From assembly GCF_027942865.1 (NCBI RefSeq), contig NC_134525.1, positions 22,753,657-22,817,656 on the forward strand: 64,000 nt of DNA, in the 5' to 3' direction. Shown piece after piece: positions 52,734-63,416 of the stretch. A program made the position numbers and the translations under genes. Below the pieces are notes generated by a model, which made no database searches, was not told where the DNA came from, and saw only the letters and a program-made list of their open reading frames with translations. Source of the DNA: Odontesthes bonariensis (taxonomy: Eukaryota; Chordata; Actinopteri; Atheriniformes; Atherinopsidae). Every line of letters starts with the position of its first letter. Position 1 is the first letter of the stretch.

Positions 52734-55700
52734 TCATTCTTCAGACCGAGTGGCCATCTTGACGAGGCTTTCCTTGTCAAACCTGAAGAGCCTCCAGCCC
52801 TCCTCCTGAGAGAGGTCCTCAGCACCGCGCGACTTGTAGAACTGAACGGACGGCTTGTTGTTCTCCGCCACCACAAACATCATGCCGGTGCAGCGCGTCT
52901 TCATCGCCAGCTGGAGGACGAACGAGTACGAAGTTAAAGAACAATCAATATGCCTACATTTCCCATCATGCAACTGGTCAATGTCACTACAGACCAACTT
53001 TAGGCTTTTAAGCTCCAGACATGACAAACAGAGTGAAATAATGTGAGAAAAAGCTAAAAGAATTACAGGTTTAAACGTTTGATTCGTTGGGTAATCATTT
53101 TTTTTTGGTTTGCATAGCCAATAGAGATCCTATAACATTCTTTAGTATTCCAATCTAAACACATATACACCACACAAGCATTAATAATATTAAAAATTCT
53201 AATAAAAAAAAAATCATGGCACTCTTCAAATTCTTGCGCTTTGATTCTGATGCAACTTGTGGACAGAAAAATTAAAACTGACGCATGTTTTTATTTAATT
53301 TACAATCATTTCTTTCCTTAAAAATGAGTTTAAAACAGATATATCTCGCACGGTCTCCAGATGACTGCAGTCCTATAGAGTCATTGTGCGACTGCTTAGA
53401 GCAAGTCAAAAAGTGGATGAGCCAACATTTCCTTCAGTTAAATCAAGAACAAACTGAGGTCATTGTGTTTGGCAACAAAGAGAAGAGGTTTGCTGTCAGT
53501 AAACATCTTGAGTCACTGTCTCTAGAAACTAAAGACCAAGTCCGGAACCTCGGCGTGCTGATAGACTCAGACCTGACCTTCAACTATCATATCAAATCAG
53601 TCACCAAATCAGCCTTTTATCAACTTAAGAACATATCCATAATTAAGGCTTTCATGTCCCAAACAGATCAGGAGAAGCTGATTCATGCTTTCATCTCCAA
53701 CAGACCTGACTACTGTAACGGTCTTCTGACTGGACCCCCAAAAGAGTCTCAAACAGCTGCAGCTCATTCAGAACGCTGCAGCCCGAGTTTTAACCAGAAC
53801 AAAGAGATCACATCACATCACCCCAGTTCTCAAGTCTTTACATCGGCTCCCAGTCAGATACAGAATAGATTTTAAAGTTCTGCTGCTCGTCTACAAATCA
53901 CGGAATGGTTTAGGTCCAGAATACATGAATGACATGCTAGAGCAGAGTATAAACCCAGCAGAGCTCTGAGATCTACTGACTCAGGTCAGATAGTGGAGCC
54001 CAGAGTTCAAACTAGACACGATGAAGCAGCTTTTAGCTGTTATGCTGCACACAACTGGAACAAACTACCAGCAGAACTGAAATCAGCCCCAACTGTAAGC
54101 ACTCTTAAATCCAGGTTAAAAACATTTCTCTTTCGGTGTGCTTATGGTTGAGTTTATATCTTTCTTTTCCCCTCTTCTTTGATTGCTTTTAACTGTGTTT
54201 TTAATTTTTATACTATTTTTTTCTCTTTAAATTGCTTGTTTTTATGCTGCTTTATGCTGTTGTTTTAAATGCCTTGTCTTTATGTAAAGCACATTGAGTT
54301 GCCTGTGGTATGAAATGCGCTATATAAATAAAGATGCATTGCCTTGCCTTTAAATGATTTTTTATTGTTAATTATCACGAAATCTTATTTTTTGATTTTA
54401 CCGAGTCCAAGAATAGATACAAATACAAAAGCAGAAATGTTTAGTAGGATGTAATGTGTGCTTGACCAGCTGCTGCTGGAGCTGAATTTAGTTTCAGTTT
54501 TGGAATCTACTCACATCACTGAGGTGTCGCAGGATCCCCGAACCGATGCCCAGCCCTAAAAACAGAGAGAGGAGAGGAAAATATTGGAACTCGAGACTTA
54601 TAAAGCTTAAGAAAAGCAGTGAAATGATGAGCAGATGAGTTGAGCCTACCTCTGTACGTGTCCATCACATAGAACTCCTCCAGGTAGAGCTGTTTGCCAA
54701 CCCAGGGGTCGTAAGTGAAGTAGTACATTGCGAAACCCACCACGTTCGGATCTGCAGGGGGAGACAGACAGCAGTGTTAAATCATCAGAGCGACAAAAAA
54801 AAATAAGGCGCTTTTAGTGTATTTCAAACAACTAAGCAAATGAAATATCTGCAGAAAAAGTCAAACAAAACTATCCAGAGTCAGTAAGTAAAATACATAT
54901 TTATTCTTTACTGTACAACACTTCTGTTTAAATACTTTAATCATTTATATGTATATATTACTATATTTTATATGTAGAGATAGCATACCATGCACCTGAA
55001 CATACTTTCTAAAGGTTTTAAAGTTGCATGTCTGGACTTGAATAGTTAAACTCGATGCAGGTGTGAAGTGTTTGGCCCTCGGGGAATGTAGTTCACACAT
55101 GTGAAAGACTGTTTTTCTCCACCCAAGAGAGTTTTACTTTTGACCTACTTCTTCCTGCTTTGATACTCTCGAGTGGAAACTTCCTTTCAAGCTACAGAAC
55201 CTTATTTGGCCTAATCTTCAGCCTATATAGTATGTGCTATAATTACTGAGACTGTGCTGTGGATTGTTTCTCAGGCTGTTTTCACACTGGGACTGTATTT
55301 TCGACAATGTATACATTGGGAAACAATGTAAACCTGCAGCTAAACATCTGACTCACAGCCAGTTCTGCTTACGATGAGACCGGTAATTATATAAACAGGA
55401 AGCACACCCCGTGATGCCTGTAAACAGACAATCCGTCCCTCCAGATGGTAGAAAACTGCTACCCCTCGTGCTGAAAACCAGTTAAATCCGCTAATCTGAT
55501 TAGCTCGGGCCTGATCTAAAGGCTGACATGGAGAGCAGGCTGTTTTCCGCTGTGTCAGAGTGTGTTTTTATTCTTAAAGGAGGGGGTTTGGAGGAATGTT
55601 TCACACCTTCACTGCTGTTCTCTCCTTGGATTTCAGCGATGATGCAATGGTAAAACGGGGTGTCACCGAATCCATCCTCAAGGAGATCTACACGGAAGAA

Positions 55701-56875
55701 CAATCTTTCATCAAATACGGGAGGAAGACCAATGATTGTTTGCGTAAACATGCCGACGGTGTGACGCAACACTCACCCTTTTCCGTCAGTGTCACCTGGT
55801 GCTCCATCTCTTCGTATTTTGCAAGTTCCTGGGACAACAAGGAGAGAAAAATGTACACATTTACAGCTTTAACGGCTGCTTTATTGACCATAACATGAAC
55901 TGACATCTGATAGCAACAAATCCACAGTTATTCTCAATTGGTAATGAGTTAATATTGAACATGTTTTAGATATAAACACTGCTTAAAAATACCATTTCAA
56001 GGCACCTGAATACAGAAGCTAAAACTATGGTACAAGATAGAAATACTTAATGGGCTTAGCTGACTATTACTAACAATGTTCTGCACAAAATGGTTGCCTG
56101 CTTTTATGTACTGTTACGACATGAGGGCGTTACTTGCTAAACATGGGGTGACTTTTGTAATACCCATATACACGAGAATGTGCGATAAATTACATGTAAA
56201 AACAACTTTCATTTGTTGCTACCTCTAAAATATGTGAATTTTCCCCATTTCTGTGTATTTTACCAGGACAAATAATCTTTTTTTTTTACTTGCCGGGCAA
56301 GGAAAATACATTTAGGAAACTTGTAATGGGCATGTCTTAACTTTTGTCCACCCGTTTAATTGCCCTAAACAATCAAAATACTCAGACATAACTGTGTTAT
56401 TGTGTCAGATCCGTTATTTATTTAAGGTCAGTCGTTATACAACTGTAATAACATTTCATCCGGGTCAGCGTAGATAAGCACATAAGCTTGCCGTCAGACC
56501 GCCCATATTTGGAGAAGAGGAAGTCGAAGTGTTCATGAGTCGTCTCGTCTGGCTGAAAACTAGGGCCACCAGCTGATCTCATACTCGGATATCCCCCGGA
56601 CACCCTTCATTCCCCTGATTTGCCTCCATCACCCGGTGCTCAACACGTCTGACGTCAACCAATATCGTCATCGAAACTACTCTGTTAGCCGAAGCATCAG
56701 CTAGCCAAAAAGTTTAACGATGACTCCACACTATCGGTTACTTTGAATCCCTATCGCGTGTGATGATGTTAACTGAATTTTTGCCAGAAATGTTTATTTG
56801 TCTCAAGTCTACCTTCACCAGTCGTAATATGTCCGGGACGTCCTTGGATTCCGCTTTTCGTAATTTATAATCCAT
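52734..56875 (-). CDS. sat1: Spermidine/spermine N1-acetyltransferase 1
   Basis: Six exons join to 171 aa, the exact length of the vertebrate enzyme: 56875-56813, 55828-55777, 55687-55607, 54751-54650, 54555-54515, 52910-52734. SAT1 is the cytosolic GNAT-fold enzyme that transfers acetyl from acetyl-CoA to spermine and spermidine, the rate-limiting step of polyamine breakdown and export. Visible signatures: [26 protein letters not shown], the acetyl-CoA loop RGLGIGSG (about residues 99-106), the catalytic-region Tyr in [10 protein letters not shown] (Tyr 138) and the C-terminal [12 protein letters not shown]. Mammalian SAT1 is controlled by polyamines at splicing (a poison exon between exons 3 and 4) and at translation; the matching intron here is 54752-55606. 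The last intron carries an L2-type LINE in antisense. Mobile elements begin about 400 bp upstream of the start codon. Confidence 0.97.
53285..54353 (+). mobile_element. 5'-truncated L2-type LINE (Maui-like)
   Basis: The plus strand encodes the C-terminal part of a reverse transcriptase: [20 protein letters not shown], then [20 protein letters not shown], then [20 protein letters not shown], then [19 protein letters not shown]. After 53745 the frame shifts. The remainder (AATGGTTTAGGTCCAGAATA, then AACTGGAACAAACTACCAGC) is recognisable in other frames. The tail ends AAAGCACATTGAGTTGCCTG followed by a polymorphic ATAAATAAAGATGC-type end. This is a dead insertion in the last SAT1 intron, opposite to the gene. 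Confidence 0.85.
54752..55606. other. SAT1 intron 3
   Basis: 855-bp intron in the position where mammalian SAT1 carries its regulated poison exon. I could not pick out such an exon with confidence. No mobile element is visible. Confidence 0.4.
55829..56812. other. SAT1 intron 1
   Basis: About 1 kb, no repeat recognised. The minus-strand frame at 56418-56603 is short and without family character. Confidence 0.4.
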
Positions 56876-57085: not shown

Positions 57086-57126
57086 TATATATATAACCGC
57101 ATGTTACTCGAAGACTATTGGCCAGT
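57086..57126 (-). promoter_or_regulatory. Probable SAT1 core promoter (TATA and CCAAT)
   Basis: TATATATATA at 57086-57095 would place a TATA box about 210 bases upstream of the SAT1 start codon. GGCCAATAG read on the minus strand (57116-57124) gives a CCAAT box about 25 bases further upstream. A second CCAAT, in the other orientation, lies at about 57149. Position fits a short 5' UTR of about 180 nt. No promoter data are available. Confidence 0.45.
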
Positions 57127-57270: not shown

Positions 57271-57278
57271 CGCAACAC
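57271..57278 (+). repeat. Left target-site duplication of outer hAT
   Basis: CGCAACAC, repeated exactly at 62016-62023. The 8-bp length is diagnostic of hAT insertion. Confidence 0.85.
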
Positions 57279-57787
57279 CAAGGGCGTCAGTTTGGTTTTG
57301 GAAGTGGTGGGGACAAAAAACGTAATGCATTCTATGCCCCCCACGGACCACCCACCATCCAGCACATTAAAAAGTAACGCATTCTAGATCTATTCCAGCG
57401 TCATGTTTAATAAGCGGCCCTTTTTTTGATGAACGCATACAGAGTTGATAAAATATATCCTTTAATTTCATGTTTCCATATCATTATGATTTGATTCGAA
57501 AGTATGTATTTATTCATGAATTAATTACTGTTAATTAATTACGCTACTGTACTGTTTGTAAGAAAGGGGAAAAGTGCAACTGCAACTGCAGCTGTTAGTC
57601 CGGACAGACTATCAAAACAAACACAGACTTCGGCCAACGGGCCCTATAACTAAGCAGAAACCTGTAGTCTGTGGGCTCCTCATTCCTCCTCATCGAGCCT
57701 CTCACTACCACCTTTCCATCAACTACATTTGACACTGAGCATATACAGAATGTTATTTTCAGGAGTTGCTAAAAAAAAAAAAACAAG

Positions 57788-57795
57788 CAAATAAC
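57788..57795 (+). repeat. Left target-site duplication of inner hAT
   Basis: CAAATAAC, repeated exactly at 60404-60411. It marks the point where the second hAT copy entered the first. Confidence 0.85.
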
Positions 57796-58743
57796 CATAG
57801 GCGTCGATTACGGGGGGGACGGTGGGGACATGTCCCCCCCACTATTTATGATTTGAATTTTGTCCCCACGACTTTTAAAAATGTGCTCTGATGCTACCGA
57901 AAAAAAATCCCCACATTCTCAACCGAAATCGTCGAGTCTAAATCATGCGATAGGCGCGCACGAACATGTGAAAACCCCAATTTGGTATTTAGTCGTTTGA
58001 TTTGCCGACTGTGAGCCACTGTGGAAACATGAAGTTGTAAAATGACAGCGGAGTCGGTGCATTCCAATGACGTCACACCAGAGGTCCGTTTCACGAAGCA
58101 GGTTTAGTGAAAACTCTGAGTTGATTAACCCTGAAATGAGGGAAACTTTTACTCAATAAACCTTGAGTTTCTCTCTGTCTCCGCCCTCTTTCAGCCACAC
58201 ACGCCATTTGATTTCCTCATTCATTCAGTCAGCAGAGCGAGTTCTTCTACTTCTAGAAGTCCATTAGGCACAGCAGCAGGCGACTGTTTCCACCAACATG
58301 TCCTTTAGACAACGATCCCGTGGATGAAGGTGCAGCATTATTGCGCAGAGAAATAAATATTCCTCAGGAGATGGTTATCAGGCTGCGCATAGATTTTTGC
58401 ATTTACAGACAATTATCTTTTTGAGCGGCACCATCAGAATGTGTTGGGACAAAAGAAAAAAAAGACATAAAAGACAAATAAATATTTTTTATGAATAGGC
58501 TTAAAAAAAATTATATAGGCTTATTATATTTTATAAAGACACTCGTGTCTTGGGGCTGGATTCCCTCCGGGGATTCCCTCAGCCACTGCACTCATTTCTA
58601 AAAACGTATTGAAACTCGCCTTATGAGCGCATTAAGGTTGGTGAAAAACGTAGCCCCTCCTCTTCCCCGTTGCCATGGTGACTCGTCGAATTGGGGCTCC
58701 ATTGATGCTGGCTTTTTAAAGTTGTGGCGCACACGCTAAACTC

Positions 58744-59277
58744 TAGCCTGACTACGTCATACTCACGATTCTAGTCAGAATGTGAGTCTGATACTGCTCA
58801 ATAGAGATTTGGGTATGGGGCGTGTTTCAACCGAACCAGGAGAAAAAATGCCTCTTCGCTCAAGTGGATAGACCTACAACCAATCAGAGCAACGTAGTAT
58901 GTGACGTAGATTAAGCGACACACACTTGTTGTAGGAAGGACGGCAAAAACATCTTTTCTATCGATAAAAGCCTTTATCGCGTTCCTCTGTTCGTCTTTCA
59001 AAATGAATGCAATGTGGAGATCCTGTAGAACAGGTTCGATGGCAGAATCTACACGCCCTAGCTCTCCAGCGGCAGCCGTGTTCAGCTCTTTAGTGACGTA
59101 GTCTATAATGTCCCTGTTGATCATCTGTCCATCATCGTATAAAGCCCGCCCTGGCAATCTGATTGGTCCGACCAATTCTTGGTCGGGCATAATGATTTCC
59201 CAACTGAGCAGAGCCAGACCGAACTTCCCGACCAAAACTTTTATGGGCGGGGCTAAGTTCGGCTGGCACCCAGGCTA
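58744..59277 (-). mobile_element. 534-bp nested element carrying a helicase gene fragment
   Basis: The ends TAGCCTG and CAGGCTA are inverted, and the 9-bp flanking duplication GCTAAACTC is exact (58735-58743 and 59278-59286). The matching position in the outer copy (about 61021) is uninterrupted, so the empty site is visible in the same window. Most of the interior is a piece of a RecQ-like helicase reading frame on the minus strand. The 9-bp duplication does not fit hAT (8) or Harbinger (3); the superfamily is unassigned. Confidence 0.75.
58925..59190 (-). pseudogene. RecQ-like helicase N-terminal fragment
   Basis: From an ATG at about 59188 the minus strand reads MPDQELVGPIRLPG and later IEPVLQDLHIAFILKDEQRN, then AIKAFIDRKDVFAVLPT. 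The EQ-x-x-AI-x-x-F pattern is the Gln-containing motif 0 and VLPT is the first half of Walker A of RecQ-family helicases. The sequence breaks at LPT before the GxGKS part, so the ATP site is incomplete. It is an internally deleted passenger of the 534-bp element. A related fragment lies at 62253-62415. Confidence 0.6.
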
Positions 59278-59416
59278 GCTAAACTCTAGGTCCTACTCAG
59301 AGTTGATTAAACTCACTCAAATCAGCGTTTCTGGAACCGAAAACTCAGAATTTTCTATCTTAGAGTAGATCAACTCAGAGATCAGGAATAGACTCAGAGT
59401 TGGTGGAACCTGCTTT

Positions 59417-59707
59417 GTGAAACGGACCCCAGGTAAACCGCTTTCCCGGCGAAACTCATTTAGAGCTACTTCTACACAAACAAAAATGCAGCGTTTCTTC
59501 GCAACTTCGCTGGTGGTTCTTCCAAGGATAACTTTAGAGGATATACACAGGATCGTGGAGTCACACTCACCAACACCACAGTCCAGGCTGAGGAAAGGGT
59601 ACAAGTTCTTTGTGGAGGAGTATATACACAGTTATCAAGGTAAATTGTCTAACGTTTTATTTTTATCAGTAGGCTACTCAATAGCCTTCCACATTCATGT
59701 TTTGTAA
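59417..59707 (+). pseudogene. First-exon-like frame inside the inner hAT
   Basis: A likely start is the Met of MQRFFATSLVVLPR (59486). The frame continues ITLEDIHRIVESHSPTPQSR and KGYKFFVEEYIHSYQ, then reaches AAGGTAAATT, a plausible splice donor at about 59640. The upstream ATG lies partly in the Harbinger-like element. I do not recognise the protein with confidence. The part around KGYKFFVEEYIHSY is reminiscent of SWIM/YqaJ-type proteins found with some fish transposons, but this is a weak impression. No later exons were found. Confidence 0.4.
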
Positions 59708-60596
59708 TGATAAGCAAACCATATACGATCCATAGAAATCATCTGAAATATTGTCTGTGTGTGAAATGTGTGTTAAATATTTGTCATGTGTAGACTATAA
59801 TATTATGAATATAATTTGCTATGGTGGCTATGAAGTCTCCGCGTGCAGCGTTAGCATTTTAGTATTAGGTTAGCCAAGGAAACGTTAAACTAGTTATTTG
59901 CTTGTTTTTTTAGCAACTCCTGAAAATAACATTCTGTATATGCTCAGTGTCAAATGTAGTTGATGGAAAGGTGGTAGTGAGAGGCTCGATGAGGAGGAAT
60001 GAGGAGCCCACAGACTACAGGTTTCTGCTTAGTTATAGGGCCCGTTGGCCGAAGTCTGTGTTTGTTTTGATAGTCTGTCCGGACTAACAACTGCAGTTGC
60101 AGTTGCACTTTTCCCCTTTCTTACAAACAGTACAGTAGCGTAATTAATTAACAGTAATTAATTCATGAATAAATACATACTTTCGAATCAAATCATAATG
60201 ATATGGAAACATGAAATTAAAGGATATATTTTATCAACTCTGTATGCGTTCATCAAAAAAAGGGCCGCTTATTAAACATGACGCTGGAATAGATCTAGAA
60301 TGCGTTACTTTTTAATGTGCTGGATGGTGGGTGGTCCGTGGGGGGCATAGAATGCATTACGTTTTTTGTCCCCACCACTTCCAAAACCAAACTGACGCCC
60401 TTGCAAATAACTAGCTTAACGTTTCCTTGGCTAACCTAATACTAAAATGCTAACGCTGCACGCGGAGACTTCATAGCCACCATAGCAAATTATATTCATA
60501 ATATTATAGTCTACACATGACAAATATTTAACACACATTTCACACACAGACAATATTTCAGATGATTTCTATGGATCGTATATGGTTTGCTTATCA

Positions 60597-60887
60597 TTAC
60601 AAAACATGAATGTGGAAGGCTATTGAGTAGCCTACTGATAAAAATAAAACGTTAGACAATTTACCTTGATAACTGTGTATATACTCCCCCACAAAGAACT
60701 TGTACCCTTTCCTCAGCCTGGACTGTGGTGTTGGTGAGTGTGACTCCACGATCCTGTGTATATCCTCTAAAGTTATCCTTGGAAGAACCACCAGCGAAGT
60801 TGCGAAGAAACGCTGCATTTTTGTTTGTGTAGAAGTAGCTCTAAATGAGTTTCGCCGGGAAAGCGGTTTACCTGGGGTCCGTTTCAC
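60597..60887 (-). pseudogene. Inverted copy of the first-exon-like frame
   Basis: Same frame as at 59417-59707, in the outer hAT. It differs by a single residue (Gly in place of Glu in the FVEEYIHS block). The conserved frame in both copies reflects recent copying rather than proven function. Confidence 0.4.
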
Positions 60888-61729
60888 AAAGCAGGTTCCA
60901 CCAACTCTGAGTCTATTCCTGATCTCTGAGTTGATCTACTCTAAGATAGAAAATTCTGAGTTTTCGGTTCCAGAAACGCTGATTTGAGTGAGTTTAATCA
61001 ACTCTGAGTAGGACCTAGAGTTTAGCGTGTGCGCCACAACTTTAAAAAGCCAGCATCAATGGAGCCCCAATTCGACGAGTCACCATGGCAACGGGGAAGA
61101 GGAGGGGCTACGTTTTTCACCAACCTTAATGCGCTCATAAGGCGAGTTTCAATACGTTTTTAGAAATGAGTGCAGTGGCTGAGGGAATCCCCGGAGGGAA
61201 TCCAGCCCCAAGACACGAGTGTCTTTATAAAATATAATAGGCCTATATAATTTTTTTTAAGCCTATTCATAAAAAATATTTATTTGTCTTTTATGTCTTT
61301 TTTTTCTTTTGTCCCAACACATTCTGATGGTGCCGCTCAAAAAGATAATTGTCTGTAAATGCAAAAATCTATGCGCAGCCTGATAACCATCTCCTGAGGA
61401 ATATTTATTTCTCTGCGCAATAATGCTGCACCTTCATCCACGGGATCGTTGTCTAAAGGACATGTTGGTGGAAACAGTCGCCTGCTGCCACGGGATCGTT
61501 GTCAAAAGGACATGTTGGTGGAAACAGTCGCCTCCTGCTGTGCCTAATGGACTTCTAGAAGTAGAAGAACTCGCTCTGCTGACTGAATGAATGAGGAAAT
61601 CAAATGGCGTGTGTGGCTGAAAGAGGGCGGAGACAGAGAGAAACTCAAGGTTTATTGAGTAAAAGTTTCCCTCATTTCAGGGTTAATCAACTCAGAGTTT
61701 TCACTAAACCTGCTTCGTGAAACGGACCT
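60875..61729 (-). mobile_element. Harbinger-like element in the outer hAT
   Basis: Inverted counterpart of 58082-59429, with the same 3-bp duplication (CTG here, 60872-60874 and 61730-61732). It lacks the 534-bp nested element but has a private tandem duplication of about 48 bp (about 61440-61535, repeated phrase CACGGGATCGTTGTC). It carries the same X-box-type palindrome at 61079-61092. Confidence 0.7.
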
Positions 61730-62096
61730 CTGGTGTGACGTCATTGGAATGCACCGACTCCGCTGTCATTTTACAACTTCATGTTTCCACAGTGGCTCAC
61801 AGTCGGCAAATCAAACGACTAAATACCAAATTGGGGTTTTCACATGTTCGTGCGCGCCTATCGCATGATTTAGACTCGACGATTTCGGTTGAGAATGTGG
61901 GGATTTTTTTTCGGTAGCATCAGAGCACATTTTTAAAAGTCGTGGGGACAAAATTCAAATCATAAATAGTGGGGGGGACATGTCCCCACCGTCCCCCCCG
62001 TAATCGACGCCTATGCGCAACACCTTCGGCTATACTTGCTACAACTTGCCACAACTTGCTACATTCAGGCAAACTGCTCATTCAGGTGGATTCGAG

Positions 62097-62135: not shown

Positions 62136-62252
62136 GCAATCAACTTTGAGCAGCGCCAAAAGCCCGGGGTAGAGGCGTGTTCAAGGTAGTGACGTGGTTG
62201 AACTGCCACTCAACCCATGGATTGTACACGGAAGCGCTTCATTCAATATCAA

Positions 62253-62415
62253 CATGGAGCAGCGTCAAGCTTTTGACACTGCTGTAGATGCTGTAATGAA
62301 AGTGTTCGACGGGAGATTCTCGTTAAAAATCGAGCAAAGAACAGCCCTTGAATCATTTCTTGACAGGAAAGACGTTTTCGCCTTGCTCCCTACTGGCTTT
62401 GGTAAGAGTTTTAAT
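62253..62415 (+). pseudogene. RecQ-like helicase N-terminal exon fragment
   Basis: From ATG at 62253 the frame reads MEQRQAFDTAVDAVMKVF, then GRFSLKIEQRTALESFLDRK, then DVFALLPTGFGKS. LKIEQ is motif 0 and LPTGFGKS a complete Walker A of the RecQ/SF2 type. Eight bases later the sequence runs into CAGGGGCGTC (62416), the typical start of a hAT element, and the frame ends at 62436. A full RecQ-like helicase needs several hundred more residues, so this is a broken gene or transposon-borne fragment, related to the one at 58.9-59.2 kb. Confidence 0.65.
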
Positions 62416-62560
62416 CCAGGGGCGTCTGTAGCTTGAGCAAACATTCGGGGCTGTAGCCCAGACATGAAAATAATTTTCAACGGGGGGTCAGGGGATTTTT
62501 CCCCCGGGATTTTTTTTTTAAAAAAAGGGGGTGTTAAAATGAAAATTTAACACAGTTCAT
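62416..62560. mobile_element. hAT-type terminus
   Basis: CAGGGGCGTCTGTAGC at 62416 has the form of fish hAT terminal repeats and interrupts the helicase frame. The opposite end was not found in the window with certainty. The following G/C-rich run (62480-62510) and an A/T-run complete the recognisable part. Confidence 0.4.
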
Positions 62561-63037: not shown

Positions 63038-63260
63038 CTTTGAAAAGTGGTCACCGCAGACACGAGCATTTGCAAATTCAGCTCCTCCAGTCTGTAAACG
63101 TAGGTTAACTATCCACTTTTTGCGGCGTTGTTCTGTGAGTTTTTTTCCATTTCTCACCTCTATGGGCGATTACCTTCGGTACCCGATAGTAACCCTTTCC
63201 CTTCTCTCGGTTAGACCGATTGCTACATCCAAAAACGGCACAAAACTGAGGTATTTTGGG
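63038..63260 (-). pseudogene. THAP zinc-finger exon with a frameshift
   Basis: The minus strand reads [19 protein letters not shown] and then [17 protein letters not shown], a C-x4-C THAP start. After a run of seven A (63140-63146) the frame is off by one. In the next frame [14 protein letters not shown] and later ARVCGDHFSK complete the C-x2-H half of the THAP zinc site, ending at a GTATGT donor (63038). THAP domains occur in P-element, Kolobok and ISL2EU-type transposases and in their domesticated relatives. With the frameshift the domain cannot be made from this copy. Confidence 0.6.
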
Positions 63261-63416
63261 CAAAAAGTGGCAGACAAAACACAGTGTTTTCAATGGGCTC
63301 CAGCTCAGGCTGCCCACCACCTGGGTAGAACAATACGGAAGTGACGTCAAGTGAAACCCTCCTATTAAAGGTGCGATTTTTATGTCATTTTGAAGTGTAT
63401 TGCATACAAAAAACAC

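Follow-up and report, generated by a model that had tools for sequence, protein, structure and literature searches.

Two copies of one transposable element are nested in opposite orientation near SAT1

The DNA analysed here is a 64,000-nucleotide stretch of the Odontesthes bonariensis genome (contig C25:22753657-22817656; hereafter the window), which contains, close to the gene SAT1 (diamine acetyltransferase 1), two nested copies of a transposable element that very probably belongs to the hAT superfamily. At 57279-62015 of the window we found four element ends and two 8-bp duplications in the block order A-B-A'-B'. The left part of the outer element (57279-57795, plus strand), which aligns with the family, runs from its A-end CAAGGGCGTC through the left copy of CAAATAAC inclusive, and the right part (60412-62015, plus strand) terminates in its B-end (GACGCCTATG). 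Rejoined, the two parts form an element of 2121 bp, flanked by the outer target-site duplication CGCAACAC at 57271-57278 and 62016-62023 (both plus strand). Between them lies the inner element (57796-60403, minus strand, 2608 bp), which is inverted relative to the outer one, with the B-end CATAGGCGTC at 57796 and the A-end (GACGCCCTTG) at 60403, and which is flanked by the inner target-site duplication CAAATAAC at 57788-57795 and 60404-60411 (both plus strand). The 8-bp duplications of both copies are perfect; a complete copy thus lies inverted within a complete sister copy, each with a target duplication of its own. Ends, duplications and block order had all been proposed in a previous reading made from the letters of the window (the sequence-only reading), and each was found exactly where that reading had placed it.

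The locus of about 4.7 kb had also been described as nearly self-complementary. Base by base this holds, but the inverted repeats form two sets that cross (57279-57780/59902-60403 versus the set in which 57796-59901 pairs with 60403-62015), so that a single strand cannot form one hairpin even though the locus is complementary. The larger set encloses a loop of about 0.5 kb. The four long arms measure 474 to 624 nt and show 99 to 100% complementarity, which rules out chance as their explanation.

The two copies are nearly identical and each carries changes of its own

Alignment of the inner copy, reversed, with the rejoined outer copy gave 2061 matches and 4 substitutions in 2065 positions, together with three indels: a length difference of 6 nt in an A-run, 543 bp that only the inner copy has, and 50 bp that only the outer copy has. 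In the multiple alignment, 5 differences are counted over the same 2065 positions, one of which lies at the edge of the 50-bp indel. The restored outer element does not simply equal the inner one reversed, as had been claimed; all three indels had been missed. When polarized by alignment with 15 other copies of the family, two of the substitutions arose in the inner copy and the other two probably in the outer copy.

The insertion private to the inner copy (58747-59289) comprises about 531 bp and a target duplication of up to 12 bp, GCTAAACTCTAG, which is repeated at the ends of the insertion and is single at the matching site of the outer copy. No match to the insertion was present in the family loci compared. 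The 50 bp private to the outer copy (61481-61530, plus strand) are a tandem duplication that is absent from all 15 other aligned copies. Both nested copies carry an older passenger element (58077-59434 in the inner copy) with 28-bp terminal inverted repeats that are 89% complementary; in the inner copy it also encloses the 543-bp insertion, and parts of it have matches in all 20 genome stretches that were fetched. An open reading frame (ORF) with MQRFFATSLVVLPRITLEDIHR at 59369-59704 (plus strand) may be a remnant first exon and had no Pfam match at E values up to 1.

Solo copies of the family define the element ends and the empty insertion site

To place the nested pair in its family, the whole genome (945 Mb, 187 contigs) was searched. 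A search with the 281-bp B-end region, in which 40 copies of 110 candidates were scored, returned sequences with 97 to 100% identity, and the two at 100% were the nested pair. Exact patterns detected 52 B-ends and 91 A-ends, while the reversed-pattern controls gave 0 matches each. A correctly oriented A-end, among 64 A-ends entered, was located within 45 kb of 46 of the 52 B-ends; the outer pair is itself one of these 46 pairings, and in a few others the distance is too great for a single element. Element lengths in the family cluster at 2.05 to 2.07 kb and at 2.45 to 2.64 kb.

Both ends were present in copies from 15 of the 20 fetched stretches, and all 15 of these copies, which were found via the B-end, start and finish alike. 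Their 8-bp duplications were perfect in 14 cases and had one mismatch in the remaining one. Among 14 further copies, 13 had perfect 8-bp duplications and one, on contig C14, had none, so that in total 27 of 29 solo copies are flanked by perfect 8-bp duplications of varied sequence (one mismatch in one, none in one). The duplicated sequence changes from one solo copy to the next, which shows that the 8-bp flanks are duplicated target DNA and lie outside the element. The site into which the inner copy inserted was recovered as well: GTTATTTG, which is CAAATAAC reversed, is single and unbroken in 15 of 15 aligned other copies and represents the empty insertion site. Solo copies with identical ends and 8-bp duplications, and an uninterrupted CAAATAAC site that occurs once per copy, are what the sequence-only reading had led us to look for.

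Two further observations were made in the course of this survey. In the region C20:12184527-13031911, 17 A-ends are spread over 0.85 Mb without a single exact B-end between them, perhaps reflecting local amplification of a fragment or a subfamily. At C6:11324300-11339100 (L061/L062), a family copy is interrupted by another element, about 11.8 kb long, which has CACTGCRGTCACGCCATCTGCGCTTCAGAGA in inverted copies at its ends and encodes a protein with Ulp1-protease and PHD domains.

A coding hAT element has ends that match those of the family

The nested copies carry no recognizable transposase. A Pfam search of nine ORFs in or near the element detected no transposase, giving few matches, all below the curated cut-offs, and the window had no Rfam match at gathering score. 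hAT terminal inverted repeats start with CA; the A- and B-end terminal repeats of the family, CAAGGGCGTC and CATAGGCGTC, are equal at 8 of 10 positions. hAT elements have a target bias of nTnnnnAn; the target sites here vary, with at most a weak excess of T at position 2 (in 24 of the 60 strands pooled from the 30 duplications, against a background of 0.26).

A coding relative was found inside a family copy on C14, which is interrupted by a 4087-bp hAT element (L082:517-4603) between 8-bp duplications of AGAGCGAG. The 4087-bp element encodes a protein of 736 amino acids (aa) with DUF4371 (4.6e-18) and Dimer_Tnp_hAT (1.8e-7) domains. Its ends align end for end and in the same order with those of the nested family (A with A, score 40; B with B, score 32; 0 of 1,000 shuffles each), while the cross pairing of the nested family's A-end with the B-end of the L082 element scored at chance level (8; 111 of 1,000 shuffles). 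The L082 element thus resembles the nested family in both terminal regions and in its 8-bp duplication, and differs in having its own 736-aa transposase and in being a separate family. Because a coding hAT with DUF4371 and Dimer_Tnp_hAT has ends that are similar end for end, the family is itself very probably hAT; this label, which could not be proven from the window, now has the support of a coding element whose ends are similar to those of the family, though not identical. Four stop-free copies of the 736-aa protein, with about 100% identity and including that of L082, lie in separate places in the genome, which suggests that a related hAT transposase has probably been active recently.

The search for relatives of the 736-aa protein returned 71 matches, with 61 of 1905 candidates scored. 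When these were compared by eye with the listed family ends, none was enclosed by exact family ends. Near the partial relatives at C3:27609102 and C4:35617507, no more than about 5 kb away, there is a bare CAAGGGCGTC, which does not belong to the 21-base family ends.

Several unusually long or truncated family copies were considered as autonomous partners and rejected. The 4.5-kb copy on C2 (L060) has no ORF of more than 117 aa; the 14.3-kb copy on C6 (L061/L062) owes its length to the foreign element of about 11.8 kb inside it; the long ORFs of the C23 copy (L053) are retroelement-like, as judged by eye only; the interior of the C14 copy (L082) is the other hAT; and the 314-aa ORF next to the truncated copy L056 has a DUF659 match that is subthreshold. 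A match in viral_contigs (L001) was dismissed as a chance match within a phage-like coding sequence, where no family piece matches.

The inner and outer copies are each other's closest relatives

To determine the kinship of the nested copies, we aligned the inner copy, the outer copy and 15 full copies; the remaining genome was checked by two private-allele patterns alone. Ten substitutions are common to the inner and outer copies and absent from every other copy with a base at the position concerned (between 10 and 15 of the 15, depending on the position). The nearest other copy is 98.4 to 98.5% identical, compared to 99.8% between inner and outer, and the two form a pair in the tree with 100% bootstrap support (branch, 0.0094). 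Two patterns that include private alleles, one of 31 and one of 23 nt (a 31-mer and a 23-mer), match only the inner and outer sites in the 945 Mb, while the 23-mer minus its private end has 91 matches. B-end pairs within 10 kb of each other are found only twice among the 52 B-ends, once in the nested pair and once in a palindrome on C4. Random landing has an expectation of about 2e-4 for the sister copy, calculated over 91 copies, and of about 0.011 for any family copy.

Origin of the nested arrangement

On the basis of these results, we consider it highly likely that the nest arose when a non-autonomous hAT element, its ends resembling those of a DUF4371-type hAT, inserted in reverse into the copy most closely related to it. 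The result corresponds, in a vertebrate, to the double Ds layout of maize. Most likely, the copy on one sister chromatid hopped into the copy on the other. In such a scenario, the locus would have been replicated, a hAT transposase acting in trans would have cut the element out of one sister chromatid, and the excised element would have been reinserted, reversed, at CAAATAAC in the copy on the other sister chromatid. The two larger indels (the duplication of 50 bp and the insertion of 543 bp) and the four substitutions would then have arisen after nesting.

A number of observations weigh against parts of this interpretation. With regard to the hAT assignment, the family's own A- and B-ends have no significant likeness over 60 bp (score 8; 127 of 1,000 shuffles), and the nested family's B-end also scores high against the A-end of the L082 element (19; 2 of 1,000 shuffles), which is perhaps explained by G/C runs. 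A cognate autonomous element with exactly these ends was not found, most copies with lone A-ends having been left uninspected, and since the coding relative is a separate family, cross-mobilization has to be assumed. With regard to the origin, the copies L040 and L041 (both on C1, 15 Mb apart) and L047 (C14) differ by 0.15 to 0.25% and are as alike as inner and outer, so that low divergence alone is no proof of a local hop. These distant, near-identical copies would fit an inner copy that came from an unlinked sibling, since excised or missing from the assembly, and that landed in the outer copy by chance. Cut-and-paste donors can vanish, and a donor elsewhere that was later excised would leave the same pattern. 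We regard this course of events as unlikely, but as one that deserves some weight; the two private-allele patterns are confined to the nested copies, and random landing would have been rare at the expectations given above. It is the private alleles together with the location that favor the local hop between sister chromatids.

Low divergence could also have been acquired late. Inverted repeats are prone to gene conversion, and conversion between the inverted arms could have erased older differences between two ordinary copies that nested long ago. Such homogenization would have had to remove nearly all of about 35 expected differences (median pairwise divergence of 1.75% over about 2 kb) and yet to keep the 543-bp and 50-bp indels, and the 4 substitutions that are seen lie scattered across the element, which makes this explanation highly unlikely. 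A misassembly or chimeric read that produced an inverted duplicate is extremely unlikely: both junctions coincide precisely with element ends and have 8-bp duplications that are not the same, and the copies are told apart by substitutions and by two structural changes; a chimera would yield neither feature. This assembly does contain a near-perfect palindrome that could be such an artifact, an inverted repeat at C4:34470600-34478200 (L049) with arms of 3719 bp (99.9%) and a 157-bp spacer, which holds two B-ends and whose arms reach past them; it is either a genuine palindrome or an assembly artifact. The two B-ends (C4:34470921/34477885) were considered as a second nest and rejected, the palindrome extending beyond the element ends and the fetched stretch containing no A piece.

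Comparison with maize double Ds

The nest is real and well supported, and it is double-Ds-like, an unusual structure of a known kind. It shares its inverted layout with double Ds in maize (state I Dissociation; Ac/Ds, hAT superfamily), in that an inverted non-autonomous hAT lies in a near-identical copy, with four ends and 8-bp duplications. The fish locus differs from double Ds in its vertebrate host, in its other ends and in its internal passenger elements; the later changes in each fish copy show persistence. Self-insertion of transposons is reportedly also seen with Helitrons in Fusarium (PMC5148889), which are another element class. A literature search turned up no vertebrate hAT nested in itself, although absence from print is not thereby proven.

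Double Ds is a classic chromosome breaker. According to one maize study, every chromosome-breaking Ds has multiple transposon ends, and nesting is rarer among Ds types, probably through selection against nested Ds, which break chromosomes; in B73 the study detected no double Ds of the chromosome-breaking kind, and it reports one Ds-l4 inside a Ds-l3 (PMC3260210). Sister-chromatid transposition (SCT), as described in a second study, acts on 5' and 3' ends that are directly oriented and belong to closely linked elements, and it can yield bridges and breaks (PMC3744419). The fish locus contains two close, directly oriented pairs of A- and B-ends (57279 with 57796; 60403 with 62015) and in this respect resembles the substrates of SCT, which together with reversed-ends transposition (RET) makes up Ac/Ds alternative transposition (PMC3744419). 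By analogy to maize, these two end pairs would be expected to permit SCT with bridges and breaks. A vertebrate nest whose ends are known, whose origin is resolved by kinship and which has undergone several later changes offers a natural test of the tolerance for such nests. It also bears on whether hAT transposases of animals act on ends that lie on sister chromatids, and on the effect of a 4.7-kb inverted locus beside a gene promoter.

The nested pair and its genomic neighborhood

The SAT1 coding region spans 52737-56875 on the minus strand. Its ORF at 52737-53129 was identified by search (residues 71-129 match diamine acetyltransferase 1, E value of 1.1e-19), and the other exons were recognized by eye. 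By its translation, which resembles the SAT1 N terminus, the first coding exon starts at 56875, the inferred start codon. The outer element begins 404 bp upstream of this codon, and the proximity to SAT1 noted earlier is thus confirmed. The motif TATATATA is located between the two, at 57086-57093. An effect of the nested pair on SAT1 is possible. It is quite unlikely, in our estimate, that a natural double-Ds-like element at this distance, combined with a recently active hAT transposase, would cause breakage or aberrant transposition to recur at the locus, with changes to SAT1 or to its neighborhood.

On the other side of the nest, the window contains a helicase-like fragment at 62173-62436 (DEAD, E value of 0.011, below the cut-off), and by eye, residues of an ORF inside the 543-bp insertion (58747-59289) resemble it. 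CAGGGGCGTC, which follows this fragment at 62417, is perhaps the end of a further hAT. Finally, an ORF at 63105-63416 on the minus strand has weak THAP-domain similarity (E value of 0.0067, below the cut-off) and is perhaps a transposon remnant.

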